A DNA stretch of 38,054 bases, from positions 1-38,054 of the forward strand of contig DAIDKJ010000002.1 of NCBI GenBank assembly GCA_027450105.1, written 5' to 3'. Source of the stretch: Ferrovum sp. GTDB lineage: Bacteria; Pseudomonadota; Gammaproteobacteria; Burkholderiales; Ferrovaceae. The notes under the pieces are model-generated. The model saw only the letters and a program-made list of their open reading frames with translations, did not search any database and was not told where the DNA came from. The position numbers and the translations under genes are program-made. This document shows, in pieces, positions 641 to 20,063 of this stretch; position 1 is the first letter of the stretch, and each line of letters opens with the position of its first letter.

Positions 641-1549
641 CTACCGGTCTGGTTGGTCATCGATACGTAACAGCTTGCCATCCGTAATGTACGGGATCAG
701 CCCTTGCTGCAGAATCGACTGGCGCGCCTCGCGACGGCACGGTCCCTCATCGGGACAATAATCCACGATAACCACAGGCACAGGATAGCGCGTGCGCACT
801 TCCTGGATGCGTTCGAGCAACCAGCGGCGATCTTCGGTTGGCACATCAAAATAACGCCCCTCGGCGTTATGCCAACCCTTGAACAAGGACTCCACCACAA
901 CACCCTTGATCCAGGGATACGTGTCGGGCAAGAGATCAAAACCTCGATTGAGAATCACAAAGGCCTCGGGGTAACGCTGATGCAGCGCTTGCAGGAGACG
1001 GATCTCTCCTTGTCGTTGTTGGGCCTGGGCGTGGGGCGAATGAGCCACCCGCCGATAGGCATCCAGCGTATCCAGAAAAAACCCCCGGTAACCACGATTC
1101 CACAAAGGAGCAATGATCTGTTCCACAAAAAAGTCCGGCCAAGCCTTGGGGGATTGGTCGATGAGTTGCGACTGCCATTCGGGATTCTTGCCCATCAACC
1201 AACTTGGCGGCAGCAGCTGAAGATAGTCACGATTGGCCGTAACCTCGCCCACGCTCACGTAGGCCAGCCAGCGTGTTGAGCCCCGGGGAGGAGAAAAACC
1301 GCTGACCGGATCCACCACCACCCGGGAGAAATGGTCCAATTGCCGCACGGGAACGGGAGCACCGTAATACAGGGCAAGTCCGTGTTGAAAAGGCGCTTGA
1401 AAGGGCTCTGCCTGCGCGCTGTCCGGGACATGGCTGCCTCCCGTCAGATAGCACAACCCTGCCAACAGCCACCCACAGACGCGGGAGAAGCCGCGTTTGT
1501 GACCCCATGGGATCCTGAACAATCGGTCATTGGAACATGTAGGTGTCAA
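641..1549 (-). CDS. Stand-alone secreted GH114/endo-alpha-1,4-polygalactosaminidase-like hydrolase (PelA hydrolase-domain paralogue)
   Basis: 302 aa, signal-like N-terminus ending AQA|EP; motifs WLAYVSVGEV, GYRGFFLDTLDAY, GVVVESLFKGW, YPVPVVIVDYCPDEGPCRREARQSILQQGLIPYITD. Overlaps the pelG 3' end; start is non-ATG (TTG at 1549 or 1522). Confidence 0.85.
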   Translation of the reverse strand: MTPTCSNDRLFRIPWGHKRGFSRVCGWLLAGLCYLTGGSHVPDSAQAEPFQAPFQHGLALYYGAPVPVRQLDHFSRVVVDPVSGFSPPRGSTRWLAYVSVGEVTANRDYLQLLPPSWLMGKNPEWQSQLIDQSPKAWPDFFVEQIIAPLWNRGYRGFFLDTLDAYRRVAHSPHAQAQQRQGEIRLLQALHQRYPEAFVILNRGFDLLPDTYPWIKGVVVESLFKGWHNAEGRYFDVPTEDRRWLLERIQEVRTRYPVPVVIVDYCPDEGPCRREARQSILQQGLIPYITDGKLLRIDDQPDR

Positions 1550-2900
1550 ATTCCAGCCACTCCAGTTTGTGATTGAGTTGTAGTAATGCTATCAAGACCA
1601 TCACCAAACTGGTTGCTGTCAGCCCAAATCCATAGGCCTGGGGTCCGAAGGCCAGGGTCAAACTGGTCAGGGTGAAGTTGAGGACGATGAAGGCACCCAT
1701 CAGTCGAATCACGACCCAACGTTGGTCCAGATACAGCAGAACATTGACAACGAGCAAAAACAGCAGTTGCAAACTGGCTGCCACGGCATCGATCCGCAAC
1801 AGGGTGAAATGTTCGGCCGAAATACCCAGTGCTGTCATCCAGTCTGCCCCAAAGGCAAAGACCAGCAAGAGGATCAAGGACTGGATTTTCAACACCTCAT
1901 ATAAGCCAGAACGAATGCTGCTGACCATCTGATTACGATGAGCGCTGATCTGGTTTAGGGTTGCGCCCTGATTGATGGCCTTATAAAAGGCGCTGCAATG
2001 TTCCACGAAGTCGGTTTCAATGCGTAGTAAGAATACGGCCATGCCGGGCAGGATAGTCAAGTAGGCCAGAAAAATCGGGAAGTCGTACAGGTAGGAGGCA
2101 TGCAGGGGCCCGATCACCGGTTGCCCGGTAGCCGGATGGTAGCGGAACAATAGTTTGTCGATCCAATTCCCCACATACAGCAACAATCCTAACAAGGCCA
2201 GAGAAGGCTGGTTGAACTGACGTCGAAATACCCGACCGGAAACAAACTGCGCGGAATGAAATGATTTCTGGATCAGCGCGTTGAGCCCCAGATACAAGAG
2301 GGCGTGCCCGGCCACGAAACTGGCAATCAAGCCATTGAGCCCAAAACGCGGAAAGCCCCAGAAGGCCAGCAACACGGTGGCCCCATACCCGAGGGCAAAC
2401 AATCCGATAATCGCACGGTACTGACGAATACCAGATAGCAGCGCAATACCACACCACAAATTGCTCAAGATCACAAAACCCATCACCATCAACACACGAT
2501 ACAGTCCATCACAATCATTGAAGAGCGTTACAGCCAGCACTGCCCCCAGTGTCCCGTTCACCGCTGTTACCGCCAACTGTACCGCATGATAGCTGGGCAA
2601 AACGTGCTCTTGCCGATGCTGGTACAACTGGTCGGCCACGTAACGAGTAAACAGCAGTTGCAGCCCTCCGGTGGTTACCAGACTGAAATCGATCAGGTAG
2701 GTCAGTGACACTTGAAACTGAACCACCGTAGCATCCCCCGGTGCCACCGCCAGAACAAACAGGCTGATGACCTGAACTGCTGCCACTGACAGGAGCAGTG
2801 GACCAGAGCCAATCAACCCCGCATACGTGTAGGCTGCCAGGGCACTGCTCAAGCTATCGCGATGCAAAATTTTACGGATTTCAAAACCAATGCCCGCCAT
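1527..2900 (-). CDS. pelG: Pel polysaccharide inner-membrane transporter PelG
   Basis: 457 aa multi-TM protein beginning MAGIGFEIRKILHRDSLSSALAAYTYAGLIGSGPLLLS, characteristic of PelG; position after pelF. Confidence 0.93.
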   Translation of the reverse strand: MAGIGFEIRKILHRDSLSSALAAYTYAGLIGSGPLLLSVAAVQVISLFVLAVAPGDATVVQFQVSLTYLIDFSLVTTGGLQLLFTRYVADQLYQHRQEHVLPSYHAVQLAVTAVNGTLGAVLAVTLFNDCDGLYRVLMVMGFVILSNLWCGIALLSGIRQYRAIIGLFALGYGATVLLAFWGFPRFGLNGLIASFVAGHALLYLGLNALIQKSFHSAQFVSGRVFRRQFNQPSLALLGLLLYVGNWIDKLLFRYHPATGQPVIGPLHASYLYDFPIFLAYLTILPGMAVFLLRIETDFVEHCSAFYKAINQGATLNQISAHRNQMVSSIRSGLYEVLKIQSLILLLVFAFGADWMTALGISAEHFTLLRIDAVAASLQLLFLLVVNVLLYLDQRWVVIRLMGAFIVLNFTLTSLTLAFGPQAYGFGLTATSLVMVLIALLQLNHKLEWLEFDTYMFQ

Positions 2901-2902: not shown

Positions 2903-4459
2903 TCAGCCACCCTTACACTGCACGGGAGAATCCACGTGAATCAAGCGCTGATACAACTCCCGGTATTGGTTCTCCATCAGGCGCGCATCGTAGAACTGCT
3001 CCACACGCGCCATGGCGCTGCCCTGGGCCTCCTGCCACAGCGCCGGATTGGTCATCAGGGCCAGAATGGCCTCGGCCATGGTCTGCGCTTGCGCCATGGG
3101 CACCACCCGGCCAGAGGGGCCCAACGCACGGTCCTGAGGGTTGGTGCCCTGAACCATCTCGCGCAGTGCCCCCACATCCGTCACCACAGCCGGAATTCCG
3201 GCTGCATAGGCCTCGAGCAACACCAGGGGCTGCCCTTCACTAATGGAACTGAATACGATCAGTCCGATCTGGGGATAGAGCGCATCCACGGATTGATGCC
3301 CCATAAACCGCATGTGCAATTCGGATAACTCCAGACTGCGCGCAAATTGTTGACATTCCTGGGCGTACTCCGGATCCTCGTCCATAGAGCCCACCAACCA
3401 GCCTTGCAAGTCGGGCATGGTTTTGCGGGCCAAAAACATGGCCTGGATGAAGGTTTTTACATCCTTGATGGGAACCACCCGTCCCACCAAGGCAACCACC
3501 GGGGGGCAAGTGGCAGGGCGCAGGCTGCGCAAGGCTGCAAAGCGGGGCACATCGATCCCATTGGAGATGCAGCGGGTCTTTGCCGGGTCAGCACCATCTT
3601 GAATTTGGCGCTGGCGATTGGTCTCGAACAGGGTCACGATGTCATCGCAAGCGTCGTAACAAAACCGACCCAGGGAAGTAAAAAAACGTATCCATAATTC
3701 CCGGATGTAGCTCATTTGCGCCCGATTCAATTCCAGAAACTGACGACTGTCCTGAATGGTCGAACTCAACAGCAAATCAATCTTGCGCTCCTTGTTGTAG
3801 ATCCCATGTTCCGTCAACAATAATGGGCGCTGGCTGTGATACCGCGCCACGGTTCCCAGAAAGCCCGCAAACCCCGTAGAGACGGAATGATACAGGCGTG
3901 CCGGGGGCAACGTCTGATAAAACTCCACTAGCCGCCACAAGGGCAGGTGCATGAAACGCGTGGTCCAGAAATAGTCGGTGAATGAGGGTTCGCGGCCATA
4001 AGTTTTATAGTAATGGGTGAGTAATTCCCAGGATCCGCGACCACGCAACAATTGTTCCCGATCCAGCGCCTGACCGGGGTACATGAGCGGTAGCAATCGC
4101 CGCAAGTGTTGGGTCAATACGGTCCTGTCTGCCGACTGATGCAGGCACTGATGCAACTCATCCACTTCGGCCATGACGGTGACCTGGCTGGCACGGGAAC
4201 GCCGGGCGGGAGGATGGGGATCTGTTCCATGAATGAAGCATTCACCATAATGACTGACATTGGCGGGCAAAGGATAGACAATCGCGGGATAATCTGCGGC
4301 ATTCCCTCCAATGAAAGCAACCGCAAAGCGCAACTCGCGGAAATGCTCCACCAAATGGGCCACCCAATGGGCCACCCCCCCCGTTATACGGGGATACGTG
4401 CCTTCCAGCAACAGGCACACATCCACAGCAGTTGAGGGATTTCGGGGCCATTTTGACAT
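2903..4459 (-). CDS. pelF: Pel glycosyltransferase PelF (GT4)
   Basis: 518 aa, VDVCLLLEGTYPRITGGVAHWVAHLVEHF, VALVGRVVPIKDVKTFIQAM, SISEGQPLVLLEAYAAGIPAVVTDVGALREMVQG; overlaps pelE stop. Confidence 0.95.
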   Translation of the reverse strand: MSKWPRNPSTAVDVCLLLEGTYPRITGGVAHWVAHLVEHFRELRFAVAFIGGNAADYPAIVYPLPANVSHYGECFIHGTDPHPPARRSRASQVTVMAEVDELHQCLHQSADRTVLTQHLRRLLPLMYPGQALDREQLLRGRGSWELLTHYYKTYGREPSFTDYFWTTRFMHLPLWRLVEFYQTLPPARLYHSVSTGFAGFLGTVARYHSQRPLLLTEHGIYNKERKIDLLLSSTIQDSRQFLELNRAQMSYIRELWIRFFTSLGRFCYDACDDIVTLFETNRQRQIQDGADPAKTRCISNGIDVPRFAALRSLRPATCPPVVALVGRVVPIKDVKTFIQAMFLARKTMPDLQGWLVGSMDEDPEYAQECQQFARSLELSELHMRFMGHQSVDALYPQIGLIVFSSISEGQPLVLLEAYAAGIPAVVTDVGALREMVQGTNPQDRALGPSGRVVPMAQAQTMAEAILALMTNPALWQEAQGSAMARVEQFYDARLMENQYRELYQRLIHVDSPVQCKGG

Positions 4460-5454
4460 CAGGAGGTCCAGTATCGCTTCAACGGCAACATAGTCGGCAG
4501 TCGGTTGCCAACCCCCAGTTGCCGCATCAAAGCCGGTATGTCGTGATAGCGCTTTTGCAGAAAGGCTACCTCGGCAAACCAGGGAATCAGACGACTGACA
4601 GGAAACTCATACATCTGCGCCTGTTCCAGGGATTTCCGGGCCAACTCCACACGCTGTTCCAGCAGCGCGCAGCGACCCAGTAGATACCACATGGCCGCCA
4701 AACGAGAATCCTGTGCCAGAGCCCGTTGGGCAAAATACTGAACGCGTTGGAGAATGAAGTCCCGCATGCTTCCCTGCACCAGGTGATGATAGATGAGCTC
4801 CCAATATAATTCAGCCAGGCGAATCCAATGACGTAACGGAAGGTCGGCCTCGGCCGACCCGGGCTGCGGGCGTTCGAGTTGCGTCAGCACGGCATAAATA
4901 TCCGTCATGATGCCCCGTTCCGCGCGGTTGAATGTCCCATACGCCAGCAAACGGATTTCATCTTCCGGGTCCAGCATCAGTTCGGTCAAGAGGTGACTGG
5001 ACTGGCGCAAGGGCAAGGCGTTGAGCACCAGCAACCCAGAGATGCGGGAGTCCGGCGCACCCTGTGTCAGATTCATCTGCGCCAGCAAGGAGGTTTCAAG
5101 CGGCGCCGACTGGACGATCAAGCGGTTGTCAAAGGATGGCCGCTTCACTTCCACCAATGGCCTGTGCTGTTCTGGTCCCCGCGCCCAGCGCCGAACCAGC
5201 TGTTCGACGGGAAGTAGCAGCACCCCGAATACGGGAATGAATTCCAGCATCAACCCTGTAAACAAAATCTGCGGGAGGTGAACCGTCGTCCGCCGCTTCC
5301 AACCCGGACTGGCATAGAGCAGGGTCAGCAGTACAGTTCCTGCACTGTGCCAAAGCGTGTAGGTCTCTAGCGAAGTACCTTGATACAGGCGCCACAGCAG
5401 CGTGAGCTGAGCCCACTCCACCAGAATTACCCACCCAAAACCCAGTATCATCAC
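4459..5454 (-). CDS. pelE: PelE, TPR-containing inner-membrane Pel synthesis protein
   Basis: 331 aa, N-terminal TM segments then TPR-like helices; located between pelD and pelF and overlapping both. Confidence 0.88.
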   Translation of the reverse strand: MMILGFGWVILVEWAQLTLLWRLYQGTSLETYTLWHSAGTVLLTLLYASPGWKRRTTVHLPQILFTGLMLEFIPVFGVLLLPVEQLVRRWARGPEQHRPLVEVKRPSFDNRLIVQSAPLETSLLAQMNLTQGAPDSRISGLLVLNALPLRQSSHLLTELMLDPEDEIRLLAYGTFNRAERGIMTDIYAVLTQLERPQPGSAEADLPLRHWIRLAELYWELIYHHLVQGSMRDFILQRVQYFAQRALAQDSRLAAMWYLLGRCALLEQRVELARKSLEQAQMYEFPVSRLIPWFAEVAFLQKRYHDIPALMRQLGVGNRLPTMLPLKRYWTS

Positions 5455-6842
5455 AGGGCACGCATCATCTGACGCAACAATAACAACTCACCTGCCGGAT
5501 TGATTGCGTCCACTAGCAGCGTGTAGGTATGAATGTCCGGGTCCTCCAGGGATAATTCGAAATGGGTTTTCAGCCCGCCGTCGATGCGCTGAAGAAATTC
5601 ATCCACCTCGGGCAATTGGGTCAGCGGCAAGAGCAGCAGAGCATGCTGGCGCTCTTGGGTGGTTTCTTCCCAGTACAAATCCAGCGAACGCATCTGGCGT
5701 AATACATCCTGGAAGGCCGTATCATGGCGCACCCCTTGGGGAAAAGACAGCGCCACCAGGGACGACTTGATGTCATAGCGCGCACGCAACTGCCCGGCGC
5801 GCGCCAGTTCCACACCAAAACGGTACTGACACTCGGGCACTTGTTCCAGAATGGGGCGCACCAACTCGGACTGGAATACACTGTCCGCATAGTAATCCAG
5901 CAATACCTGAAGAAATTCCAGATTTTCCTGATTGAGGGAAAGAAAACTCATTTCGCTCACCACCAGCATGGCCACGATGGGCGTATGGTCAGTCACAATG
6001 GGTGCGGCCACCAGATAATGTTGTGGCGAATCCTCCAGCACCTCCTTCAGATGCGTCAGACGACTCCGATTCAATGCGTGGACGAGAACGGGGTCGTCTT
6101 CCTGCAACGGGTTTACAGGTCCAATGGTTGCCACTGGCTGCGGCAAGAGTTTCCCCCGATCCGACACCGGATAAATGGCGGCCTGGGTCAACTGAAAGAG
6201 CATCGACAGCAGTTCCAGCAACGCCTGGGTATTGCCCAGCAATGGAGATTCTTGAGCGGACGGCGGCTGCAGCACGGGCAAAATTTCGCGCAAACGCTCA
6301 ATTGCCCCGCGCAAGGTAACCGGCCGGATATACACTTCCTGCTCCAGCCGATCATGGGACACCCGCAACAGGTAATGCGCCGTCGTGAGCGCCCGCAGAC
6401 GTTCGGTCAAATACTGGTTGCTCCCCTTTTGGCGTTTGTGCACCTCGGACCAGCGATCGCTCACATGTCCAACAACCAACACCTGCACCAGACCACCAAC
6501 CAGAAAAGGACTGGAAAAATCCACCGGGGCCAGATGCATGCGCGACAAGCCAACCCCCAAAGCCAACAATAGAAGCGCTCCAAACAGACCGCTGGATGCA
6601 CCGTAGCGCAAGGCCACCACAGTAGGCATGAGCCAGACCCAAGGATAGTCCCCATGAACCCAGAAAGGATCCTGTGGGTGCACCAACGCCGAAAGGAGCA
6701 ATCCCACGACAATCAACAGGGCAACTTCCAGCAACCGTTGCGGTCGCAACTCCTGGTTCGGGCTCATCACCCAGGATGGTCGCGACACCCTCAAGGCTGT
6801 GGACAAACGGCCGTCGATAAAATCCTGAGGATCGTGTTTCAC
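5451..6842 (-). CDS. pelD: PelD, c-di-GMP receptor of the Pel synthase (TM, GAF, degenerate GGDEF)
   Basis: TM-rich N-terminus, GAF-like middle, C-terminal degenerate GGDEF-like domain with RSLD (RxxD) in LRQMRSLDLYWEETTQ. ORF track opens at 6932; likely GTG start at 6842 just after the pelC stop. Confidence 0.92.
   Translation of the reverse strand: MKHDPQDFIDGRLSTALRVSRPSWVMSPNQELRPQRLLEVALLIVVGLLLSALVHPQDPFWVHGDYPWVWLMPTVVALRYGASSGLFGALLLLALGVGLSRMHLAPVDFSSPFLVGGLVQVLVVGHVSDRWSEVHKRQKGSNQYLTERLRALTTAHYLLRVSHDRLEQEVYIRPVTLRGAIERLREILPVLQPPSAQESPLLGNTQALLELLSMLFQLTQAAIYPVSDRGKLLPQPVATIGPVNPLQEDDPVLVHALNRSRLTHLKEVLEDSPQHYLVAAPIVTDHTPIVAMLVVSEMSFLSLNQENLEFLQVLLDYYADSVFQSELVRPILEQVPECQYRFGVELARAGQLRARYDIKSSLVALSFPQGVRHDTAFQDVLRQMRSLDLYWEETTQERQHALLLLPLTQLPEVDEFLQRIDGGLKTHFELSLEDPDIHTYTLLVDAINPAGELLLLRQMMRAL
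5679..5690 (-). other. Putative c-di-GMP-binding I-site (RSLD) codons in PelD
   Basis: Codons CGT TCG CTG GAT on the minus strand; position corresponds to the RxxD inhibitory-site motif described for PelD. Confidence 0.7.
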
Positions 6843-6856
6843 CAGAAAATCCTGAC

Positions 6857-7390
6857 TCAGTGGGCCGTCAACGGTGCCAGCAATTGTCCAATCAGTTGCT
6901 GACCGGTGGCACCCAGACTGGTTCGGCTCCAACCACTGCGGCTACCCGTCGCGCTCCAGATGATGCTGCCGGTGCGCAAATCGTAGAGATTGAAGGTTAA
7001 AGTCACTGCTGGTTCGCCATCCACGCCTGTTTTATAGCGCCATTCCTGCACGGACCCGCTCAGCGCATAGCGCATTCCAGCGCGTCCAGCCCAATCCAGC
7101 GCGGCATTGAGCGTCTTGGTATTGGCTCCGGTCAAAAAACTGTCTTCGTCACCGGGCAGGGGGTAACGCTGCAATCCCGAAATGCCCCGCTGGATCAGGA
7201 CGCTTTCTGCGATACTATCCACCCGCTCGCCGGCATCCGGCGTTTCGGTGTAATTGGCAATGGGCAACAGCGCCCAGCGCCCGTCATCGGCCAGGTGAGG
7301 AGCCGTTCCCACATTCAGCGTGGAGCAACCGGCCAAAACCAGGACGGCCCCCCACCCCCACCCACATAACCATTTTCGCAAAGACATCAT
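6857..7390 (-). CDS. pelC: PelC, outer-membrane lipoprotein
   Basis: Lipobox LVLAGCS; located between pelB and pelD; ATG at 7390 preceded by AGGGGAG. ORF track start 7414 includes a likely untranslated extension. Confidence 0.9.
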   Translation of the reverse strand: MMSLRKWLCGWGWGAVLVLAGCSTLNVGTAPHLADDGRWALLPIANYTETPDAGERVDSIAESVLIQRGISGLQRYPLPGDEDSFLTGANTKTLNAALDWAGRAGMRYALSGSVQEWRYKTGVDGEPAVTLTFNLYDLRTGSIIWSATGSRSGWSRTSLGATGQQLIGQLLAPLTAH

Positions 7391-7420
7391 TCTGTCACTC
7401 CCCTGTTGAATCACAGCCTG

Positions 7421-10400
7421 CTAGTAAAAATAACGGTAATTGAGGCCAAACTGGCTAAACGATTGCGAACTACCCGGAGTCGTTACATGAAAGTAATAGA
7501 TCTTGGCCTGGTCTGCCCCCGCCACAGACCCCGCCAAACCAACATTGAGCTGAGGCATGCCGCCGCCTTGTCGATCATGAATGACTCCTACATCCGCATA
7601 GGGTTGCCAGTCGCCCCGTGGCGATTGGGCGTTTCGTACCACGCCATTCCAACTCAACAGGAAACCGGTTTGCGCAATCGTTTCCGGAAGTGCAAAGGGA
7701 TTCTGGCCCCGTACATCACCCGGCAAGTAACGCACCAACTCTCCCAAGGGCTGGCCACTGGATTGGTTCTGCCCCTGAAAGGTCATGACCCGGGCAGTCA
7801 GATCGGTAGGTTCGACCCACAGGTGATAGCCCATCTCCACCGTCCCCAAATCCCCATGCCCCAAGGATAACCCGTTTTGCCCGGAAAACCGGTCAACTTC
7901 CACTGTGCCCTGCACATAGGTGCGAGTGGAAAGATCCCATTCTCCGTCCAGTTCGATCAGATCCTTCATGCCGGCCACCTGCAAGGCTGGGGTCAAGCCA
8001 GAAAACTGATGCCAGCCCACGGTCAACCGGGTACGCAAGGCGGGATCAGACTGCGTCTGAACACTGGCCAGATACGTGTTATTGAGATAATCCGTACGGC
8101 GCTCCCCCACAGAAAACAGCCATTCGTAATCGGCCAGATGATCGCGCAGGGTCAGAATGTTGCTCAAGTCTCGAGAAGGGACACGGCTCAAATCAGCCCC
8201 CCCGGTCAACTGGGTTTGCCGTTCAACACTCTCCAGAGCGATTCCCCATTCGGCGTTCAGCCAATCTTCCCAACCCAGGGCATGCTCCTGGTATTGCAGC
8301 GAATTCCAGCGCGTCATGCTGCTTTGGAACACCAGATTGGGCGAATTACTATCCATTGGGCTCCAGTAGGCATTGGTCATCGGCCCGGTTCGCTCCCCCA
8401 GAAAACTAACCGGCGCAAGCAACAAACCCCGCAAAGTGCTTTGAAGATCCGTGGCATCCGGAGCCTCGGTCACGGCCTCGAAGGCCGCCGTCTGCAATTG
8501 GGAAGTCCTTCCCAAGCGCTGCAGAACCTCCAGTTTTCGGGGTGCGGCTTGAAGCCGCTCTGGATCATCGATCAGCGCCGTCAGAGTATCCCGATCTTGG
8601 GTCAGCATGGCTACACTCAAATGCAAATTGGCCGGATCATGAGTTAACCGAGAGGCACGCTCCAGACGGAGTGCCAGATCCTGGGCGTCGAGTGTTACGG
8701 CCCATGCGATGAAGAGTTCCAGCACGGCAGTAGGGTCGACACAGTTGATTTGATGGGCCCAGTCAGCACTTTTCGCCAGCGACAGCAGGGACGGACAGGT
8801 TTGCGCCTCGATGCCCAGGTTATCCTGAAGCGCCTCAATGGGCCCCAGATGCGATCCAGGGATCGCGCCAGAGGACTGATAAGACAGAACCTGCCGCAAC
8901 AGTCGACGATAGCTGCCCAGGGCCTGATCTCCATTCTGGAACAGGGGTCCCAGGGCTGCGCGCTGAAGATCTGGTGCCTCGGGGTTTGCAAGCGCCTCCC
9001 GTGGTTCCAACCCAAACAGGGGTTGGGCATGCCCAACCCGCGAGCGCGTCATCGTTGCGGCGCCTGCAGCGGTTTGCAGCGCCTGCACAAACTGGCGCCA
9101 GGCCTGACGGCGCAGACGCCAGGCCTGGGTGTCGTGACCCAGTTGCTCCTGGGCTTCGGCCATCAGAAGTAGCCCAGCGGGGTCAGAGCGTTGTGCAGTT
9201 GACAGGCGGTACAAATACGTCAAGGCAATGCGCGCCTTTCCCAGTTTCAAATAACCGGCACTGGCCACGCTAAAATACACTGGAGCATTTTGAATTGAGC
9301 CTTCCCAGCGACGCAAGGCTTCACGCAATTCCCGGGGTCTGTCCAGATCGATCAGGGCCCAGAGCAAATTGATTCGCTCTCCCTCCGACTGGGGCGCCAA
9401 CGCCAAGGCCTGGCGCAGATTGGCACTGACCGCCCGCGCATTACCCAGATGACGCTCGTATCGGGCGCGCAAGACCCGCCAGTTCGAATAGCGACTAAAG
9501 CTTTGGCGCTGCGCCAAGGTGATTTGGTTCATAAGGGTCTCCACCCGTCCCCAGGCGCCAATGGTCATGTACGTTTCCAACGCGGATTGCAGGGCTTCCC
9601 AGTGCCCGGCAAGACGAAACTCCAGTTCATGCAAGCGCGCCGCATCATAGGGGTAGTTGGCATAGAAGGCTTGCAGATGCCCCAGATCATCCAACAGAGC
9701 AGCACGTTGTTCGGCCGTTTGGGTGGAGGGGTTGGCGGCAGTGGGTAGGGCAAACAGACCACTGTCGAGGAGGTTTCGATAGGCCTGATCGGCCTGTTTC
9801 TCACGGTGATTGAGAATGGCCAGGTCGGCGTACTGTCGCCAAAAAGGGGCGTCCCGTGGGTCATGATCCATTTCCGGGCGCACGGCTTCCAGGTCCGCCA
9901 AGGCCCGCTCCAGATGACCCTGACGCTGGTCGATATCCGCCAGTGCCATGGCGTAGTACGCACTGGCGCCAAATTCCTGCTGCAGGGTCTCGTAGGTGGC
10001 TCGTGCTTGGTCATCGGCCCCCACGATAACAGCCAGTTGCGCATAATGCTCCAGCAAGGGTACCCGCAATGATCCTTGCGCATTATCCTTGAGCGTAGCC
10101 AGTGCCTGTTCTGGCTGCCCTAGTCGTTCCTGGGTGGCCACAATCTGGTTGATCAAAAGGCCTGCATGCGGGTGAAACCGCAGACTTTGCTGCAAGGCTT
10201 CCAGATAGACGGGCACTTCGTTGAGTTGTCGTGACAGTTGCGTAACCCGCTCCCAAGCCTCGGGATTCTGGTTGTGGCGTGCCTCTATCAGCCAATGCTC
10301 CAATGCCAGGCGCGGTTGACCGTTCCATTCATACAGTTGAGCCAGGCGATGTTCCCAGCGCTCATCGTTTAGGTGATGTTCCAGGGCCTTGTGAGCCAGC

Positions 10401-11455
10401 CGGATGGCTTCCGGCAGTTGCTGGTTTTGCACGAAAGCCTCGTACATCAATTCGTAGGTTCCATCGGGCAATGGGGGGGGTGCCAAATCCGTCGCGACAC
10501 GCTGCAGCCCCGAGCGCTCGAAATTCCAGGAAAGCCGATGCACAGCCCAGCGATTGACACGCTGAACCTCCCCCCGGGCTGGGGAGAAAGTTCCGGCGGT
10601 CTGACTAAACACCATCAGGCGCCGGGCCATATCCAGAGCCAATTGATGGCATTCTCCCATGAGCGCCACGCGCAAAACCAGCGTCAACGTGGCACTATCC
10701 GGAGTCAGTGCTGGCAGATGGGATTGCGCTGCCAGGCAGGCCCGCGCAGTTTGGTTTCCCGCCAGGAGTGCCTCCAGCCCGGCTTGAAATGCTTGACGCT
10801 GCTGGCTTGGGTCCAGCGCCAAGCGTTGGATCATAAAATCGGCTTGAGATGCCGCCTCAAATTGTCCCTGACTCAGCGCACTGCGCGCCACTTCGCGCCA
10901 GCGAACCACGCGATGGCCCGGATCCAGTGGATCCAACTGCAGGTTGAGCCATTGCAGCGTCTGCCAGGCATCCACGCTCCGTGCCAGGTCCCACAGAATC
11001 AGCAACTGAGGACCCGTCCAACGCCCCTGGGGCACCTGCTGCCATAACGCGTCCAGTTGTCGGACAAGCGCTAGCCGCTGGGCCTTCCCAGGGGGACTAC
11101 GAAACAAAGCCGTACGTTGTGCTTCCAGACGCAATAACAGCACGCCCTCCCGAGAACCCGTCCCGGGTTGGCGTTCCAGTCGCCGGATGGCACCTTCGGC
11201 ACGCTCCAGATGTCCTAGCGCCAAGTTGGTCTGCGCCAAGCGTTCCAACAAGGCCGGCAAGTTTGGTGCGCCATCGGTCAGGGTTTGCGTCTCGGCTTGC
11301 AGATAGGCTGCAGCCACTTCACTGGGCTGGCTCTGATTTGTAGCGCCAATTCGACGTCCAGCATCCTGCCATAACCAGATTAGAAGTGCCAGCATCAACA
11401 GTACGAGAACGAGCAAGACCCAAGGCAATGTCAGGGCCTCGCGCTGCTCATTCAC
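7421..11455 (-). CDS. pelB: PelB, TPR scaffold plus C-terminal outer-membrane beta-barrel
   Basis: About 1340 aa: N-terminal TM, long TPR-rich region, C-terminal barrel ending in aromatic ...GLNYRYFY. Likely GTG start at 11455 overlapping the pelA stop (GTGAATGA); ORF track start 11482. Confidence 0.93.
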   Translation of the reverse strand: MNEQREALTLPWVLLVLVLLMLALLIWLWQDAGRRIGATNQSQPSEVAAAYLQAETQTLTDGAPNLPALLERLAQTNLALGHLERAEGAIRRLERQPGTGSREGVLLLRLEAQRTALFRSPPGKAQRLALVRQLDALWQQVPQGRWTGPQLLILWDLARSVDAWQTLQWLNLQLDPLDPGHRVVRWREVARSALSQGQFEAASQADFMIQRLALDPSQQRQAFQAGLEALLAGNQTARACLAAQSHLPALTPDSATLTLVLRVALMGECHQLALDMARRLMVFSQTAGTFSPARGEVQRVNRWAVHRLSWNFERSGLQRVATDLAPPPLPDGTYELMYEAFVQNQQLPEAIRLAHKALEHHLNDERWEHRLAQLYEWNGQPRLALEHWLIEARHNQNPEAWERVTQLSRQLNEVPVYLEALQQSLRFHPHAGLLINQIVATQERLGQPEQALATLKDNAQGSLRVPLLEHYAQLAVIVGADDQARATYETLQQEFGASAYYAMALADIDQRQGHLERALADLEAVRPEMDHDPRDAPFWRQYADLAILNHREKQADQAYRNLLDSGLFALPTAANPSTQTAEQRAALLDDLGHLQAFYANYPYDAARLHELEFRLAGHWEALQSALETYMTIGAWGRVETLMNQITLAQRQSFSRYSNWRVLRARYERHLGNARAVSANLRQALALAPQSEGERINLLWALIDLDRPRELREALRRWEGSIQNAPVYFSVASAGYLKLGKARIALTYLYRLSTAQRSDPAGLLLMAEAQEQLGHDTQAWRLRRQAWRQFVQALQTAAGAATMTRSRVGHAQPLFGLEPREALANPEAPDLQRAALGPLFQNGDQALGSYRRLLRQVLSYQSSGAIPGSHLGPIEALQDNLGIEAQTCPSLLSLAKSADWAHQINCVDPTAVLELFIAWAVTLDAQDLALRLERASRLTHDPANLHLSVAMLTQDRDTLTALIDDPERLQAAPRKLEVLQRLGRTSQLQTAAFEAVTEAPDATDLQSTLRGLLLAPVSFLGERTGPMTNAYWSPMDSNSPNLVFQSSMTRWNSLQYQEHALGWEDWLNAEWGIALESVERQTQLTGGADLSRVPSRDLSNILTLRDHLADYEWLFSVGERRTDYLNNTYLASVQTQSDPALRTRLTVGWHQFSGLTPALQVAGMKDLIELDGEWDLSTRTYVQGTVEVDRFSGQNGLSLGHGDLGTVEMGYHLWVEPTDLTARVMTFQGQNQSSGQPLGELVRYLPGDVRGQNPFALPETIAQTGFLLSWNGVVRNAQSPRGDWQPYADVGVIHDRQGGGMPQLNVGLAGSVAGADQAKIYYFHVTTPGSSQSFSQFGLNYRYFY

Positions 11456-14186
11456 AGTCCACCTCGACGTGGTGCGTGGCAATCGGCAAGCGTTCCTCGA
11501 AGGGCCAAGATAGTGTCATTTCGGAGGCGGCCTTGTCGGGCATACGTTTCTGGCCATCGGCAAGAATCTGACAGCCTTCGATGCCTTGCAATTGCACTTG
11601 TGGATGACCATATGCCATCAACTGAAAATCGAGCATCCGACCGTCCCGCAAGCGCTGCGTCTGGTGGATCTCGCCATTGGCCAACGCCACGTAGGGAACT
11701 GATGGGCTTGGCGGGGTTGACGCCACCGTGAAAGTTGCTTCGGATCGATCCAAATGGACATAGACTCCACCCGGACCAGCCACATACCCCAATACGCCCT
11801 GTGCGCCATTCCATTGGGGATAGAGTCCGGATGGCAAACGCAATTCGCGCAGGAACGGGCCCGTGCGAACACGCCAGTCCGAGCCCATACGCGCAATGGC
11901 AGCATGCCTGGAATCCAGCACCCGTTGAACATACGCCGAGGTAAACACAGGAAACAGGTTCTGCTGCAGCAATTGTTGGTAGATCCGCTGCAAGGCGGCC
12001 AGTGAAGCCAATTTGGTGCCGGAATAGTAGTGATAATATAAATCCACGGGTTTCAGCCGCAGCGGGGTTTCCGTCAGGGCATAGGTTTCCAGGGAGCGTT
12101 GCATGCCATAAAAGGCATGTGTCCAATCGTCCGTGTAGATATTCTCGTTCACTGCGGCGGCATAAATCTGGAAGGTATCGTCTTCCTCCAGGCCATTTCC
12201 CTTGTCGATTCCCACTCCCGAAATGAGCGTCCAGGAAGGTTTGGAGGAAGTGAGCGCGGTATATCCCCCATTGATATTGAGCACTCCAACCCGTCGGGCC
12301 AAGCGTAGGGCTGCTGCCGTGGGGTTAGCCGCTCCGCTCCATTGCATCAGGCGCACCGGCTTGCCTGGTGGGGCCAATTCACGCCGAATGTAATCGATAC
12401 TCCCACCAATTTCACGCTCCAAGGAAAACGCGTAGCCTGGCAGGGGAATGGACACTTGCTGGTCTAGTCGGGCTCCAGGCTCCAAAATACGCACCCAGTC
12501 CAGCACATGGGTGTAGCCGTGGGATCCCAGTTCTACTTGGGGCAGGGCAAAGGCCTGACGAGCCATGGCTTGCATGTGGGCAGACAGCTCGGGATAACGC
12601 CCCCGTGGACTAATCTCTCCTTCGATCACAGACAAAGTGATGGGCAGCGGGTAACGTTTGAACACCCGTTCCATGAGAGCATCGATGGCAAACAACTGGT
12701 TGCCGGAAAACTCCGTGCGCGAAATGAAACCATCTCCATCCACATGGGTAAACCAAAGCCGGCGTCCGTTTTCCGAGGTGACATCTGGGACCGGCATGGC
12801 AGGCAACACCAGCGCTTGGCGCAGAAACTCGAGCGGCCGCACAACCCAGTACTGCAAATCATCTCCAGTCAACTGGGTCAGACAGAAGGGCGCCAACACA
12901 TACCCTCCCCAAGGCGTCAACCCGGCCAAGTCACTGTGCTGGTTGGCAATGCCAACCCGGCCCAAAACCCTGATATCGCGACCCGCATGTAGATCGAGCA
13001 CATCGTCACTGGTCAGTTGCGGGGGACGCTCGAAAGACAGCATGGGGTCGAGGTATTCCAACCGGGGAACACTGCCTGTGGGAAGGGCAAATGGGACTTT
13101 TGTAAAACCCAGGCGCACTGCCGTCGCAGCATCCAGATCAAACCCAAAACTCTGAAACACAGCAACTTTCACACCAGCTGCCATGCGCCCCAGCAGCCAG
13201 TTGCGCACTCGCCCCTGTTGGTTGACCGGGTGGTCGACGAACAGGACGATTCCTGCATAGCGATCATTATCAATATCCTCTGGCAGCTGATCGTTCACGT
13301 TGACGTAACGAGCCAGATAACCCAGATAGTCGATGGGCATGCCCAACACTCTGGCAGCCGTCCCCGTCTCGGGGGGGTCTCCAGGGTTTAGCGCTTGTAG
13401 CACCAGCAACTGCCGTGGCAGGACTTCCACGCGCCCGATACCCACGACCCGGTATTCCGGATCCGTGACATAAGGATTCAATCCCAAGTCGATAGCCTGG
13501 CGGGCCACCTGCTGCCTGCAACTGCGGTCCTGACGGGCACAAAATTCCACGTCCACGAGGTTCAAAGCCGGTTGCATCTGGTGCAGATTCTGAACGATCT
13601 GCAGATTGAGTTTCTGTCGTTGGGGATCGAGGGCCATCTGCCAGCCTGCCGGATGGTAGGATCGCACCAAGGAATCCAGTACTAGTCCCTGCACCCATCC
13701 CGGATGTTGCACTACAAAATCCGTCTGATTCTGCAACAGCAGGGTCGCCTGGGGAAAGCGCGCGCGCAGTGACGTCAGAGCCGCCGCCAGCACCCGAGAT
13801 GAAAGCGCGGCACTCTCCTGAGAGGGGTATGGAGTTAGTGAGTCGGAGGCCAGGGTGAGGAGATAACCCCGAAACCCTTGATTCCACAAAGGCTGAATCT
13901 GCCCATCCAACCAAACAGTCAGTGTTGCCTCGGAAGCATCGGAGGGAACAGGTACTTTGGCCAGCCAGAGCGTATGCTCATAACGCGACCGGTCCAAAGC
14001 CATCAAATCGACTTGGCGTGGATCCAGCACAACCTGGTCGAAGGCTTGCAATTCATCCAGAGGGGGGTGCGGTCCCAGATAGAGGGCCACCTGTGGCGCA
14101 GGTTTTTCTGTTTCGGCCCCTGTAGAGGGCATCATCACAAGACACAAGCAACCGGCCAGAAGGATGCGGATCAGCCGTCGAACCAT
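11448..14186 (-). CDS. pelA: PelA, periplasmic Pel deacetylase with degenerate N-terminal GH114-like domain
   Basis: Deacetylase motifs LWFTHVDGDGF and ELGSHGYTHVLDW intact; N-terminal domain homologous to the stand-alone GH114 (NQGFRGYLLTLASD, GLVLDSLV, ARQAIDLGLNPYVTD). ORF opens at 14255; likely start MVRRLIRILLAG at 14186. Confidence 0.93.
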   Translation of the reverse strand: MVRRLIRILLAGCLCLVMMPSTGAETEKPAPQVALYLGPHPPLDELQAFDQVVLDPRQVDLMALDRSRYEHTLWLAKVPVPSDASEATLTVWLDGQIQPLWNQGFRGYLLTLASDSLTPYPSQESAALSSRVLAAALTSLRARFPQATLLLQNQTDFVVQHPGWVQGLVLDSLVRSYHPAGWQMALDPQRQKLNLQIVQNLHQMQPALNLVDVEFCARQDRSCRQQVARQAIDLGLNPYVTDPEYRVVGIGRVEVLPRQLLVLQALNPGDPPETGTAARVLGMPIDYLGYLARYVNVNDQLPEDIDNDRYAGIVLFVDHPVNQQGRVRNWLLGRMAAGVKVAVFQSFGFDLDAATAVRLGFTKVPFALPTGSVPRLEYLDPMLSFERPPQLTSDDVLDLHAGRDIRVLGRVGIANQHSDLAGLTPWGGYVLAPFCLTQLTGDDLQYWVVRPLEFLRQALVLPAMPVPDVTSENGRRLWFTHVDGDGFISRTEFSGNQLFAIDALMERVFKRYPLPITLSVIEGEISPRGRYPELSAHMQAMARQAFALPQVELGSHGYTHVLDWVRILEPGARLDQQVSIPLPGYAFSLEREIGGSIDYIRRELAPPGKPVRLMQWSGAANPTAAALRLARRVGVLNINGGYTALTSSKPSWTLISGVGIDKGNGLEEDDTFQIYAAAVNENIYTDDWTHAFYGMQRSLETYALTETPLRLKPVDLYYHYYSGTKLASLAALQRIYQQLLQQNLFPVFTSAYVQRVLDSRHAAIARMGSDWRVRTGPFLRELRLPSGLYPQWNGAQGVLGYVAGPGGVYVHLDRSEATFTVASTPPSPSVPYVALANGEIHQTQRLRDGRMLDFQLMAYGHPQVQLQGIEGCQILADGQKRMPDKAASEMTLSWPFEERLPIATHHVEVDCE

Positions 14187-14203
14187 CACGGATCGCCCAT
14201 CGC

Positions 14204-15214
14204 TCAGGAGGGAGCAGCAGACAGGGCCTGTTGCCAAGCCCAGGCACTGGCGCATTGGTCTGCAAGATCATGACGCGCCACCCAGCCCAGGATTTGATGC
14301 GCCTTGGTCACATCGGCAAAACTGGCTGCAATATCTCCGGGACGACGGCTGGCAATGCGGTAAGCCAGCGAATGCCCACAGGCCTGTTCGAAGGCGGCAA
14401 TCAGCTCCAGAACGCTCACGCCCCGCCCAGTACCCAAATTGAACACGTCCCAACCGGAATGCTGCACCAGGTAGTCCAGGGCAGTCAGATGCCCTTGTGC
14501 CAGGTCCATCACGTGAATGAAGTCACGCACCCCAGTACCATCCACCGTGGGGTAATCCTGCCCGAAAACTTCAACCTCAGACTGCCAACCCGCCGCCACT
14601 CGAGCCACTGCCGGCATTAGATTACTGGCAATCTCCGAGGGAGCCTCACCAATGAGGACGGAGGGATGGCAGCCCACTGGATTGAAATAGCGCAGGCCCA
14701 CCAGATGCCAGCGCTCATCACTGGCGGCCAGGTCGGCCAGTATCTGCTCTGCATGCCACTTGCTACGGCCGTAGGGGTGCGCAGGATCCAGGCGCTGGGA
14801 TTCGTTGACAGGCAGCGTATCACTCTTGCCGTAGACGGCAGCACTGGAACTGAACACCAAATGAAACACCCCAGCCGCTTCAAGGGCACGAGCCAACACG
14901 GCGGTACCGTGAACATTGACCTCATAGTACTCCAGAGGATCAGTGAAGGATTCACCCACCACCTTGAGTCCCGCCAGATGGATCACGGCCTCGACCTCAT
15001 GAATTTTCAATGCTGTCAACACCGCTTGATCATCGCGCACATCGGCTTGCACCAAGGGAATCTTCGCGCCAGTCAGACGCTCGAGTTTCTGCACAACCTC
15101 GGGGCGACTATGGCTGAAATTGTCCAGCACCACGGGATGGTGACCCGCCGCATGCAGCACGGCCACCACATGGCTGCCGATATAGCCGGCCCCACCGGTC
15201 ACCAAAACATTCAC
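14204..15214 (-). CDS. galE: UDP-hexose/UDP-N-acetylhexosamine 4-epimerase (GalE family; PelX-like by position)
   Basis: 336 aa SDR: MNVLVTGGAGYIGSHVV, SSSAAVYG, YGRSKWHAE, RYFNPVGCHPS, DGTGVRDFIHVMDLA, RRPGDIA. GTG start; ends about 17 nt before pelA start. Confidence 0.93.
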   Translation of the reverse strand: MNVLVTGGAGYIGSHVVAVLHAAGHHPVVLDNFSHSRPEVVQKLERLTGAKIPLVQADVRDDQAVLTALKIHEVEAVIHLAGLKVVGESFTDPLEYYEVNVHGTAVLARALEAAGVFHLVFSSSAAVYGKSDTLPVNESQRLDPAHPYGRSKWHAEQILADLAASDERWHLVGLRYFNPVGCHPSVLIGEAPSEIASNLMPAVARVAAGWQSEVEVFGQDYPTVDGTGVRDFIHVMDLAQGHLTALDYLVQHSGWDVFNLGTGRGVSVLELIAAFEQACGHSLAYRIASRRPGDIAASFADVTKAHQILGWVARHDLADQCASAWAWQQALSAAPS

Positions 15215-15400: not shown

Positions 15401-16786
15401 TCATCGATCGGAGGTTTGAAGAAGCCTCGCAGTCAAAGCCTGTGCCACTTCTTCAATCGTCTGTGACCAGTCGCCCACCCTGGCCTGACGAAACAGGCGC
15501 AGCGAACCCGGATACCAGGGCGAGTCCGTACGCTTGGCCAACCAGCGCCAATCGGTCAGATAATTGGGTAACAGCACCCAGCAGGGTTTACCCATGGCCC
15601 CCGCCAGATGAGCTACCGCCGTATCCACACTAATCACCAGATCCAGATGAGCCAACACCGCAGCAGTGTCAGCAAAGTCCAGCAGATCGCCCCCCAAAGC
15701 CACCAGGGACAATCCTGCCGGAGGGTTCTGCGCTTCGGCTTCCCCTGCCCCTTTTTGCAGGCTGATCCATTGCACTCCGGTAATCTGCCCCAAAGGAGCG
15801 AATAATTCGAGAGAAGGTACGGAGCGGTCATGGTCATTCTCGAACCGAGGGTTTCCCTTCCACACCAGTCCCACGCGACAATTGGCAGAAGGCAAGCAGC
15901 CGGCCCAACGGGCTTTATCCTCTGGAAATGCCGCAAGGTATGGCAGGGATGCGGGAATGGTGTCCAGTGTTGTCCCGCAACGGTAGGGCAAGCTCAACAG
16001 GGGCAACCAGTAATCCCACTCTTCTACCGAAAGATCATTATCGCAAGAATAAACCGAATCGAGAGCGGAAAGCGTGGTAAACAAGCGGACCAATGCGGGA
16101 TGGCAGACAATGCCAACCCGATGCGCCCCTCGGGCTTTCAACAGCGCTGCATAGCGACAAAACTGGATCATGTCTCCATAGCCCGCCTCGAATCCAATCA
16201 ACAGGGATTTGCCTGCGAGCGCCTCACCACCCCAGAGAAGACTGTGCGCCGGAGGTGCCCAGCGTTCGTCCCGGGGACGAGCTTCCAGATAGGGCCATCC
16301 CTGTTGGAGCCGTCCCTGACGGAGCAGCAGATAACTGAAGTTGAAGCGCGCCTGGGCGTGATGACCATCCCATTCCAGGGCGCGCTCAAAACAGCGTTCC
16401 GCCTCCTGCTCGCGCTGCACGCAAGTCAGCACCACCCCCAGTTGCGACCATACATCGGGATTCTGGGGCGCAATCTGCACTGCTCGCCAACAGGCGGCTT
16501 CGGATTCAAAAAATCGCTTGTCGTGCAGGAACAGAACCCCCAGATTGAGGTAAATCTGCACGCAATCCGGACGAAATATCAGAGCACGCTTGTAGCAGGC
16601 CTCGGCTTGTGCGATAGCCCCATTTTGTTCATGCACCCAACCCAGATTGATCAGGGCTTCGGGAAAATCCGGGGCCACCAGCAGCGCCTTGATGAAACAG
16701 GCTTCCGCCGCCTGGATTTGACCTAGCGTCAAGCGCTCATAGCCTTGCAAAAACCACGCCTGTGCTTCGGCAGGACAATCAACCAT
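15401..16786 (-). CDS. TPR repeat protein with C-terminal GT9/heptosyltransferase-like domain
   Basis: 461 aa; N-terminal TPRs (PDFPEALINLGWVHEQNGAIAQAEACYKRAL) and C-terminal LVISVDTAVAHLAGAMGKPCWVLLP motif. Confidence 0.85.
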   Translation of the reverse strand: MVDCPAEAQAWFLQGYERLTLGQIQAAEACFIKALLVAPDFPEALINLGWVHEQNGAIAQAEACYKRALIFRPDCVQIYLNLGVLFLHDKRFFESEAACWRAVQIAPQNPDVWSQLGVVLTCVQREQEAERCFERALEWDGHHAQARFNFSYLLLRQGRLQQGWPYLEARPRDERWAPPAHSLLWGGEALAGKSLLIGFEAGYGDMIQFCRYAALLKARGAHRVGIVCHPALVRLFTTLSALDSVYSCDNDLSVEEWDYWLPLLSLPYRCGTTLDTIPASLPYLAAFPEDKARWAGCLPSANCRVGLVWKGNPRFENDHDRSVPSLELFAPLGQITGVQWISLQKGAGEAEAQNPPAGLSLVALGGDLLDFADTAAVLAHLDLVISVDTAVAHLAGAMGKPCWVLLPNYLTDWRWLAKRTDSPWYPGSLRLFRQARVGDWSQTIEEVAQALTARLLQTSDR

Positions 16787-16807
16787 CTCGACTCGTGAAA
16801 AGTGCGC

Positions 16808-17026
16808 TCAATTCAGATGGATCGTGTCCGCCTCGAAGTTAGGGAGGGCCTCCTTCAACGCCTTGGCGTAAGCCATGCGGGCCGTCTGCAAGGCAGCCAC
16901 CAACCCTTGCAGACGGGTAAGCTCGCTATCCACAAAATGCAGACTGGCCAGCTGGGCTCTGGCATCTGCAGACAACTGTTCCAGTTCATACTCCGTGTCA
17001 TCGATTCTGATGGTTGGCATGGTCAT
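16808..17026 (-). CDS. Small conserved protein, DUF6447-like
   Basis: 72 aa MTMPTIRIDDTEYELEQLSADARAQLASLHFVDSELTRLQGLVAALQTARMAYAKALKEALPNFEADTIHLN; strong RBS (ACAAGGA) before ATG. Confidence 0.75.
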   Translation of the reverse strand: MTMPTIRIDDTEYELEQLSADARAQLASLHFVDSELTRLQGLVAALQTARMAYAKALKEALPNFEADTIHLN

Positions 17027-17207
17027 TCCTTGTCGTTTGGTTAAAAGAAGGCGGTCTACAAACCATTTCCGGCCTGCAGGCTACTCGAAAACCGGCAGTG
17101 TAAGCATTGGTTGGGATGCGCGCAAATAGCGAATCCAGACATCATAAAACACTTAGGCGAGTTACTACGCCCGCAGTAAAGCCCAAATGGAGGGCATAAT
17201 GGTCTGA

Positions 17208-20063
17208 TCAACGGCCATCAGACATTGGAACCGGTGGAATCAATGGGTAGCGCACGATTTCCGATGGATAAAAAATACCGCCACGCAATGAAAGATTGGG
17301 AGAGCAGGCAGGATCGTTCTGAAGGATTTCTGGCCAGCGTGCTGACATGGCCGCCATTTCTTTCTGGTACGATTTGTCTTGCTCCGGGTTATTCTCAGCG
17401 CCGGTGTCGGAAGACTTGCAGCAAGTCATTTCAGCATAAGGCGTCCAGACATTGCGATAGCCCGCAGATTGAAGTCGAAGACAAAAATCCACATCATTGA
17501 ATGCCATGGGTAGGGTTTCATCGAAGCCGCCCAATTGTTCAAATAAACTTTTTCGTACCAGAAGGCATGCGGCCGTCACGGCGCTCCAGGATTGTTGCAG
17601 CACTGCCCGTCCAAAGTAACCGGCATGGCCGTGCGGCAGACCTCTGTGAGGATAGTCTGTCAACCCCCCCACACCAATGACGATACCCGCATGCTCCAGA
17701 GTACCATTGGGATACCATAGACGTGCGCCTACGGCGCCAACACCTGGACGTGCCCCCTGGGAAACCATCTCCTCAAGCCAATCGGGTGTAATGATTTTAA
17801 TGTCGCTATTCATTAAACAAAGGAACTCACCATTAGCCCGTTTAGCGGCTACATTATTGAGCGTGGAAAAATTAAACTGTCCTTCATCACGCAGAACACG
17901 TACCCCCCTGGCCTGAAGGTGTTCGAGTCGACTCAGTGATTTCTGTTGCGTACTTCCATTGTCGACCACAATGACTTCGTATCGGGGGTAAGTAGTTTTC
18001 TTGAAAATGAAATTCACACAGTCTTCCGGCAAATGTGCACAGTTGCGCGCATGAATGATAAGGCTGACCAGCGGTTGCGGTGACGGGCATTCAAATTTCA
18101 CCCGCTGGTGGGGTAACGCTTCAGGGCAGGAGAGTACCTCACCCGACAGATGAAGTCGTTGCAAATGGTCCCTAACTGCCCGTTTGGCCGAATCCAGAGC
18201 ATACGGCTTTTCATCGACATGCACTGATGTGCTCCCGGGTATCATGCGCCAGTGATAAAGTACCCGTGGAATGTGAATGATCTGTGCGGGTGTTAAACAC
18301 GTAATGGCGCGCAAAGCCAGATCGTAGTCTTGAGAGCCTTCATATCCTTCGCGAAACCCCCCCAACCCCACGATGAGTTCGCGGCGATATCCTCCCAGAT
18401 GACTGATCATGTTTTGTGCCAGCATCAAATCCGGGTTGAAATCAGATTTGAAATAAGGGTCAATGCGCAATCCGGATTCGTTGAGTTTATCTTCATCTGA
18501 GTAAATGATCCCGGCATCGGGGTGGCTAACAAGTGCATGTGCCATGTACCATAACGCCAGAGGATGTAACAGGTCATCATGGTCAAGCAACGCAATAAAC
18601 TCACCTCTGGCCAATGCCAACGCAGAGTTACTGGCTGCGCTGATATGCCCATTCACGCTTCTTTTGACCCAACGAATTCGACTTTCGGCCATTGCCCGAT
18701 CTGTCAGGAATTCATCCAACTCAGGACTATTGCTGGCGTCATCTGCAATACAAAGCTCCCAGTGGGGGTAAACCTGATTGCGCACGCTATCAATGGCGGC
18801 CTGCAAGTACGAAAGATTAGAGCGGTAAGTCGGCATCACAACGGAAATCAGCGGCGTTTTTGGCCAATCGGATAATTGTGCCGACATGAGGGCATAATCA
18901 CCCGATGTCGGCTCGTTCATGGCAATCCATTTCGCATAGTCGACTTCGGGCGGTTGCAGTTTGGCCTTGCCGATTTCGGCACTCAACCCTGAAAGGCCAT
19001 GCTCATGCAGAACATGCCATCCCCGAAAACCTGCACGACGGGCCCATCCCGGTTCACGCACTGCGCGTCTCAATACTCGACCCATGAGTTTCAAGGCACG
19101 CAGTGGGGCTGTAATACGCCAACTGGTACTGGCATAGAGGTCTCTTATCTCCTTATCATGCAGGGATTTCAGCATATTGACACGGACCTGGAGATCATGG
19201 ACCAGGGTTTGGGCTTGTGCCAATTCATCTTCGAGCCGACGCAGTTTTTCTTGAGAAGCGATCCTTGCATTTTCGCTTTGCAAGAGCTCTTTCCGGGATG
19301 CGTTCAATTGATTGTTGGCTTGCAGAAACTGATCACGGAACTCCTGATATCGCCACACGCGCTCCATGATTGCACTGGATTGCTCAGGTGACCAACGTTG
19401 GCTCCATTTGTGGTAAATACGCTGGGCTTGGTGATTAAAAAACGGCACTAGTTGATGAACTCCGGAACTGTCATGCACGCGATAACAAGCGGTAATTTGC
19501 GGAACGTGAATGAAAGTTCCGTGTTGCGCCACCTGAAGCCAGAAATCCCAATCCTCGTACAAATCCAGCGTTTCATCAAAACGGCAACCAGACAGGATAA
19601 CCTCACGGCGGAATAAAACGCTATGCAGCGGCATTAAATTTCCCGCCTGCAGTTGAATGGGGTCAAACTCCAAAGAGAATACCGTTCCTCGAGATTCTCC
19701 CTGCGCATGACATAACTGTACATCGCTATAGGCGGCCAAGGCTTCCGGGTGATCGTTCAAGGCTTGTAGCAACCCAGACAGATGACCGGCGAGCAACCAA
19801 TCATCGTCATCCAGAAACAGTAGCCAGTCTCCCGTGGCTTGACCCAACGCCCGATTGGCCGCCACGCTTCGTGATAACGGTATATCTGAAGTAACCAGGC
19901 GCTGTGCCAGATGAATCTCCAACTGCGGAAGAGGCCCGTGATTTGGAACTGCAGCGATGACGATCACTTCCATATCCGGTATTTTCTGAAGTGCCACCGA
20001 TAGCAGCGCCTGAGCCAGATATTGAGTACGTCCAAGACTTCTTATCAGAACGGAAATATGCAT
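17208..20063 (-). CDS. Large multidomain glycosyltransferase (three GT2-like domains plus coiled coil)
   Basis: 951 aa: N-terminal GT2 (ISVLIRSLGRTQYLAQAL, LLFLDDDDWL), coiled-coil middle, second GT2 (ISVVMPTYRSNLSYLQAAIDSV, ALLDHDDLLHPLA), third GT2-like (VSLIIHARNCAHL, VVDNGS, MNSDIKIITPDWLEEM). Confidence 0.88.
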   Translation of the reverse strand: MHISVLIRSLGRTQYLAQALLSVALQKIPDMEVIVIAAVPNHGPLPQLEIHLAQRLVTSDIPLSRSVAANRALGQATGDWLLFLDDDDWLLAGHLSGLLQALNDHPEALAAYSDVQLCHAQGESRGTVFSLEFDPIQLQAGNLMPLHSVLFRREVILSGCRFDETLDLYEDWDFWLQVAQHGTFIHVPQITACYRVHDSSGVHQLVPFFNHQAQRIYHKWSQRWSPEQSSAIMERVWRYQEFRDQFLQANNQLNASRKELLQSENARIASQEKLRRLEDELAQAQTLVHDLQVRVNMLKSLHDKEIRDLYASTSWRITAPLRALKLMGRVLRRAVREPGWARRAGFRGWHVLHEHGLSGLSAEIGKAKLQPPEVDYAKWIAMNEPTSGDYALMSAQLSDWPKTPLISVVMPTYRSNLSYLQAAIDSVRNQVYPHWELCIADDASNSPELDEFLTDRAMAESRIRWVKRSVNGHISAASNSALALARGEFIALLDHDDLLHPLALWYMAHALVSHPDAGIIYSDEDKLNESGLRIDPYFKSDFNPDLMLAQNMISHLGGYRRELIVGLGGFREGYEGSQDYDLALRAITCLTPAQIIHIPRVLYHWRMIPGSTSVHVDEKPYALDSAKRAVRDHLQRLHLSGEVLSCPEALPHQRVKFECPSPQPLVSLIIHARNCAHLPEDCVNFIFKKTTYPRYEVIVVDNGSTQQKSLSRLEHLQARGVRVLRDEGQFNFSTLNNVAAKRANGEFLCLMNSDIKIITPDWLEEMVSQGARPGVGAVGARLWYPNGTLEHAGIVIGVGGLTDYPHRGLPHGHAGYFGRAVLQQSWSAVTAACLLVRKSLFEQLGGFDETLPMAFNDVDFCLRLQSAGYRNVWTPYAEMTCCKSSDTGAENNPEQDKSYQKEMAAMSARWPEILQNDPACSPNLSLRGGIFYPSEIVRYPLIPPVPMSDGR

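Follow-up and report, generated by a model that had tools for sequence, protein, structure and literature searches.

A separate PelA-type hydrolase gene behind pelG accompanies a decayed hydrolase domain in PelA of Ferrovaceae

PelA has a compact architecture of four domains and acts together with PelB, and the roles of its deacetylase residues D528, D530, H600, H604 and H761 have been described (PMC12022489). For the hydrolase, PaPelA D160A E218A is a published hydrolase-inactive variant, and alanine variants of PtPelA at D149/E207, the equivalents of D160/E218, were unable to disrupt biofilms (PMC12022489). Loss of Pel cleavage in P. aeruginosa leads to more adherent biomass and to the absence of cell-free Pel (PMC9894940, PMC12022489). 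Gram-positives are known to carry PelAH as a separate gene near their pel loci, and deletion of the separate PelAH of B. cereus likewise gives more biofilm biomass (PMC7112168). In a 2025 comparison of full-length PelA homologs, the hydrolase residues proved to be conserved, and it was suggested that wherever pel occurs both activities could be essential (PMC12022489). The Ferrovaceae, iron-oxidising bacteria of acid waters, are an exception to this conservation of the fused hydrolase residues. Pel is not mentioned in the Ferrovum genome papers that were consulted, and the searched literature, mostly without subscription papers, yielded no description of a Gram-negative pel operon that combines a decayed fused hydrolase with a separate intact one.

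The window analysed here is a stretch of 38,054 nucleotides from a Ferrovaceae metagenome-assembled genome (Ferrovum sp.); its minus strand carries a galE-type epimerase gene (14204..15214, Pfam Epimerase) upstream of pelA, and then pelA-B-C-D-E-F-G in canonical order down to 1527, as in Gram-negative pel operons. PelA (11448..14255) combines a decayed hydrolase domain (residues ~53-285, 13401..14099) with an intact deacetylase. It is followed by pelB (7421..11482), encoding TPR and a beta barrel (B-barrel_PelB_C, E 5e-49), and by the lipoprotein-like pelC (6857..7414), which was assigned by position, length and a weak LpoB match, and whose profile detects pelC in other loci. Downstream are pelD (5451..6932), a c-di-GMP receptor-type GGDEF gene (PelD_GGDEF, E 4e-22) whose start may be internal; pelE (4459..5454), assigned by position and length, with a profile built from the ORF detecting pelE in other loci; the pelF glycosyltransferase gene (2903..4459, DUF3492 and GT4); and pelG (1527..2900, Pfam PelG, E 7e-128). 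Upstream of the operon, the stretch 15401-21114(-) holds glycosyltransferase family 2 genes and, directly before galE, a gene for a TPR protein that weakly matches glycosyltransferase-9 (15401-16786); a similar TPR gene lies upstream of pelA in locus L017. In the window that contains the c-di-GMP-type pelD, two chemoreceptor-type genes and one for a PAS-GGDEF-EAL protein (33928-36648) also lie ~15-20 kb upstream of pelA, together at 29717-36648(-).

The last pel operon gene encodes a separate GH166-like hydrolase of the PelA type, pelAH (641..1549, minus strand), of 302 aa, with a TTG start and a second candidate start, TTG, at 1522. At its 5' end the gene shares 23 nt with the 3' end of pelG, an overlap that recurs unchanged in the sister genome, in agreement with the preliminary description of an ORF that follows and overlaps pelG. 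As a tRNA-Met lies on the opposite strand beyond this ORF, the gene run ends here; a promoter and terminator scan gave little above shuffled sequences. That the gene is real is supported by a Pfam match (PF03537, ‘GH114’, E 2e-16, 60 bits), by matches to PelA in the PDB, by a dN/dS of 0.11 between the window and a same-genus genome, and by its presence in 8/8 pel loci of the family. The nearest public relative, from a Ferrovaceae bacterium, is 90% identical in this protein, and a sequence scan of genome contigs returned one close relative only.

We found the two catalytic-type acids named in the preliminary description, D160 (codon 1070-1072) and E220 (codon 890-892), and these align with D160/E218 of P. 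aeruginosa PelA, i.e. with the catalytic Asp and Glu of GH166. The separate protein retains 27 of 28 near-invariant family positions. Its best phmmer matches in the PDB are PelA hydrolase domains (9cgy, E 8e-33; 5tcb, E 2e-29). An AF2 model of 247 residues, of moderate quality (pLDDT 66, pTM 0.66), places both acids where strands end (chain positions 101-106 and 159-165 in the model), as a barrel would predict, and its top three Foldseek matches are PelA (5tcb, E 5e-14), with GH191 at about 1e-8 and the GH114 enzyme Ega3 (6oj1) ranked 27th at E 7e-3. Because PelA domains are the top solved matches, GH191 comes next and Ega3 falls far behind, the protein is, by resemblance of sequence and modelled fold, a GH166 (PelA hydrolase) and not a member of GH114; hence the hydrolase fold first proposed stands, together with its Pfam ‘GH114’ match, and the GH114 label does not. 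An endo-alpha-1,4-N-acetylgalactosaminidase activity on Pel is predicted for it. Since its N-terminus resembles a Sec signal by eye (PDSAQA|EPF), the protein is likely exported to at least the periplasm, which accommodates the earlier word ‘secreted’ up to that point.

The separate protein aligns with the N-terminal part of PelA (residues 20-265) over 278 columns with 24% identity (BLASTP, E 6e-17), as had been claimed. To judge the fused domain, a reference profile was built from 46 hydrolase domains without Ferrovaceae, in which 28 positions are ≥95% conserved; the window PelA keeps 11 of these 28 positions and every non-Ferrovaceae domain keeps 25-28. The earlier proposal that the catalytic acids retained in the separate copy are lost from PelA held up in the alignments. 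When the conserved LWNxGxRG strand is read without gaps, the D160 position is T134 (BLASTP and a three-sequence alignment), and the E218 position is D194 in all alignments. In an alternative register, MAFFT on larger sets opens a four-residue insertion that brings D138 to the D160 position, and in this one register some residual acid pair, D138/D194, is possible. The two catalytic acids of an active GH166 domain are thus not both present in the window PelA. The equivalents of Y56, S98/E101, D132, N199-R200-G201-F202 and D260-Y261 are also lost, and a 24-residue stretch of the separate protein is absent; from its position, we infer that this stretch belongs to the beta3-alpha3 insertion, a proposed ligand-binding element (PMC12054363). 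AF2 modelled the fused domain poorly (pLDDT 50). The deacetylase (CE21) residues are intact: D506, D508, H579, H583 and H742, equivalent to D528/D530/H600/H604/H761, are invariant in alignment A1.

To see how extra gene and decay are distributed, PelG searches were made in 1,198 genome look-ups across family, order, class and phylum, some genomes being drawn repeatedly, and 88 stretches were fetched from the PelG hits. In each of the eight Ferrovaceae pel loci read, which come from two genera, pelG is directly followed by the separate gene, with overlaps of 4-65 nt. The hydrolase domain is decayed in 7/7 Ferrovaceae PelAs that were readable in the locus beside the extra gene; the 48 other fused PelAs all keep both D160 and E218 (decay 0/48), and their loci contain no post-pelG PelAH. 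Thus the loss of the PelA acids co-occurs with the post-pelG gene, as the survey suggested in the preliminary description was meant to ask. Because the Ferrovaceae are one clade, extra gene and decay are a single evolutionary event in eight genomes, not eight independent cases. In a direct PelAH search of 398 genomes of the order, two copies were found only in the Ferrovaceae, in G403 and in G128. G403 has two whole pel operons, both of which encode a fused PelA, and outside the Ferrovaceae it is the only one of these 398 genomes in which a fused PelA is joined by a second full-strength PelAH. The second match in G128 (C16:93378-93803) is weak, 44 bits in a 344-aa frame ~16 kb beyond pelG.

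A post-pelG PelAH is not a common arrangement, being seen outside Ferrovaceae only in L050 and L091. In L091, PelAH lies 1.7 kb from pelG and is followed by pelADA. The L050 copy belongs to genome G297 (L050 3140-3985(-), L099), which, like G344 (L054 11279-12232(-)), is 99-100% complete and has pelAH in its pel locus, right after pelG in G297; a PelA deacetylase domain was not found anywhere in these two genomes at E 1e-5. Other layouts were also met. PelAH and PelA deacetylase are two neighbouring genes in nine pseudomonadotal loci (L070, L071, L083, L084, L085, L087, L094, L096 and L097), and most of the split-gene PelAHs of Pseudomonadota retain both catalytic acids. In L100 (3419-5488(-), G645), pelA is a deacetylase without hydrolase domain, and a second PelAH was not found in the G645 genome with the full-length PelA profile; this may be a pel locus that lacks a hydrolase domain. 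The PelA frame of L012 (3473-6248(+), G007) is split into two overlapping ORFs of 800 and 392 aa, by a frameshift or an assembly error.

Selection was compared between the window and the same-genus genome. The separate gene has a dN/dS of 0.11; the fused hydrolase domain has 0.26 (95% range 0.17-0.43), the deacetylase part of PelA 0.10 and PelG 0.05. Because 0.26 stands against 0.10-0.11, while hydrolase and deacetylase domains of ordinary PelAs have similar dN/dS, the fused domain is under relaxed yet purifying selection. This constraint could also be read as a sign that both domains are active but differ in substrate or working pH, the fused one having diverged rather than died, and decay is indeed uneven: in four genomes of genus g4 the E218 position is still Glu, and in one PelA both the D160 and the E218 positions are Asp. 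However, the loss of the residues listed above together with the 24-residue stretch, and leftover acids whose pattern varies between Ferrovaceae genomes, unlike in a new conserved active site, make two active domains quite improbable. Because the fused domain is still constrained and PelA is a compact protein working with PelB, it is probably a pseudoenzyme domain retained for structure. For the more specific idea that this conserved pseudoenzyme serves PelA-PelB assembly or chain guidance, with the active hydrolase free of the export complex, we consider the odds to be about even.

In the trees, the separate copies form one clade and the decayed copies another, and a sister relation of the two has modest support (72/62). 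When the decayed copies, which are fast-evolving, were left out, the separate copies joined those of L019/L020, from the same order (99/92), and the PelG tree gives the same L019/L020 neighbours with support of 97. Since separate copies and PelG share these neighbours, the trees point to a duplicate of the lineage's own PelA domain. Alternatively, the gene could have been gained horizontally from another pel lineage and have taken over the native role: a post-pelG PelAH also exists in L050 of the same order, and the union of the L050 group (L050/L052/L054) with the Ferrovaceae copies, although disfavoured, is not firmly rejected (AU p 0.055, borderline). Such xenologous replacement is nevertheless unlikely, as the trees join the L050 copy not to Ferrovaceae but to the fused PelA of L052, which itself lies after pelG, and as the L019/L020 placement disfavours a distant source.

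Taken together, we favour, with a probability of roughly 0.75, a duplication behind pelG in which the separate copy keeps the GH166 site, the fused domain is non-catalytic but folded and the deacetylase works. In the ancestor of these Ferrovaceae, a second copy of the PelA hydrolase domain would have arisen as a gene of its own behind pelG; the product of this gene would have kept the GH166 active site, and the original domain would have lost catalysis and persisted as a folded non-catalytic part. Both proteins would be made from one operon and exported, PelA would deacetylate the GalNAc chain in complex with PelB, and the free hydrolase, no longer tethered to the PelA-PelB export complex, would cleave Pel by an endo-alpha-1,4 mechanism with the acid pair D160 and E220. 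Hydrolase loss would then be expected to act as in P. aeruginosa and B. cereus. Enzyme activity, substrate, location and the effect of untethering are what we infer within this scheme. One could also suppose that the enzyme acts on foreign polymers, e.g. fungal galactosaminogalactan, rather than on the cell's own Pel, given that PelAH enzymes act on galactosaminogalactan across kingdoms (PMC12054363); in 8/8 loci the gene closes the pel operon and overlaps pelG, and its closest relatives are PelA domains, so that this is very unlikely.

Under the duplication reading, a separate protein has probably taken over one of the two jobs of PelA. As for the earlier view of a decayed fused copy and an active separate one, the decay is upheld by the survey and the view as a whole is supported, with activity and a division of labour presumed. 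The signature of hydrolase activity is retained in the separate gene in every Ferrovaceae pel locus read, and because the fused domain decayed yet this signature was kept, the locus lends support to the idea that it is Pel cleavage that cells need, not its fusion to PelA. It offers a natural case in which structural and catalytic roles of the hydrolase domain can be tested apart. If the pseudoenzyme-domain reading is true, Ferrovaceae keep apart two functions that Pseudomonas PelA combines, which would make them the first known case of such a natural uncoupling in a Gram-negative pel system.

Compared with known systems, the PelA hydrolase domain of Pseudomonas (GH166; 5tcb, 9cgy) shares the fold match, both acids and the motifs SVGE, DTLD, NRGF, ES and DY; there it is the N-terminal domain of bifunctional PelA, whereas in the window a gene after pelG encodes it as a protein of its own, of 302 aa. 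The GH114 (Ega3) and GH191 (TM1410) endo-galactosaminidases have the same barrel fold and acid pair (PMC12054363) but are more distant from the separate protein than GH166 (Foldseek 7e-3 and about 1e-8 versus 5e-14). PelAH of B. cereus (BCE_5582) and of other Gram-positive loci is likewise a separate exported protein beside or inside the pel locus (PMC7112168). However, PelA of Gram-positives is a deacetylase only (PelADA), whereas that of Ferrovaceae still carries the decayed hydrolase domain, and the Ferrovaceae operon is of the Gram-negative pelABCDEFG type, unlike the pel loci of Bacillus cereus and other Gram-positives. Split pelAH and pelADA genes in other Pseudomonadota (L070, L083, L084, L097) likewise give a separate intact PelAH in a Gram-negative background, but there PelAH lies beside pelADA, mostly just upstream, and no decayed fused copy accompanies it.
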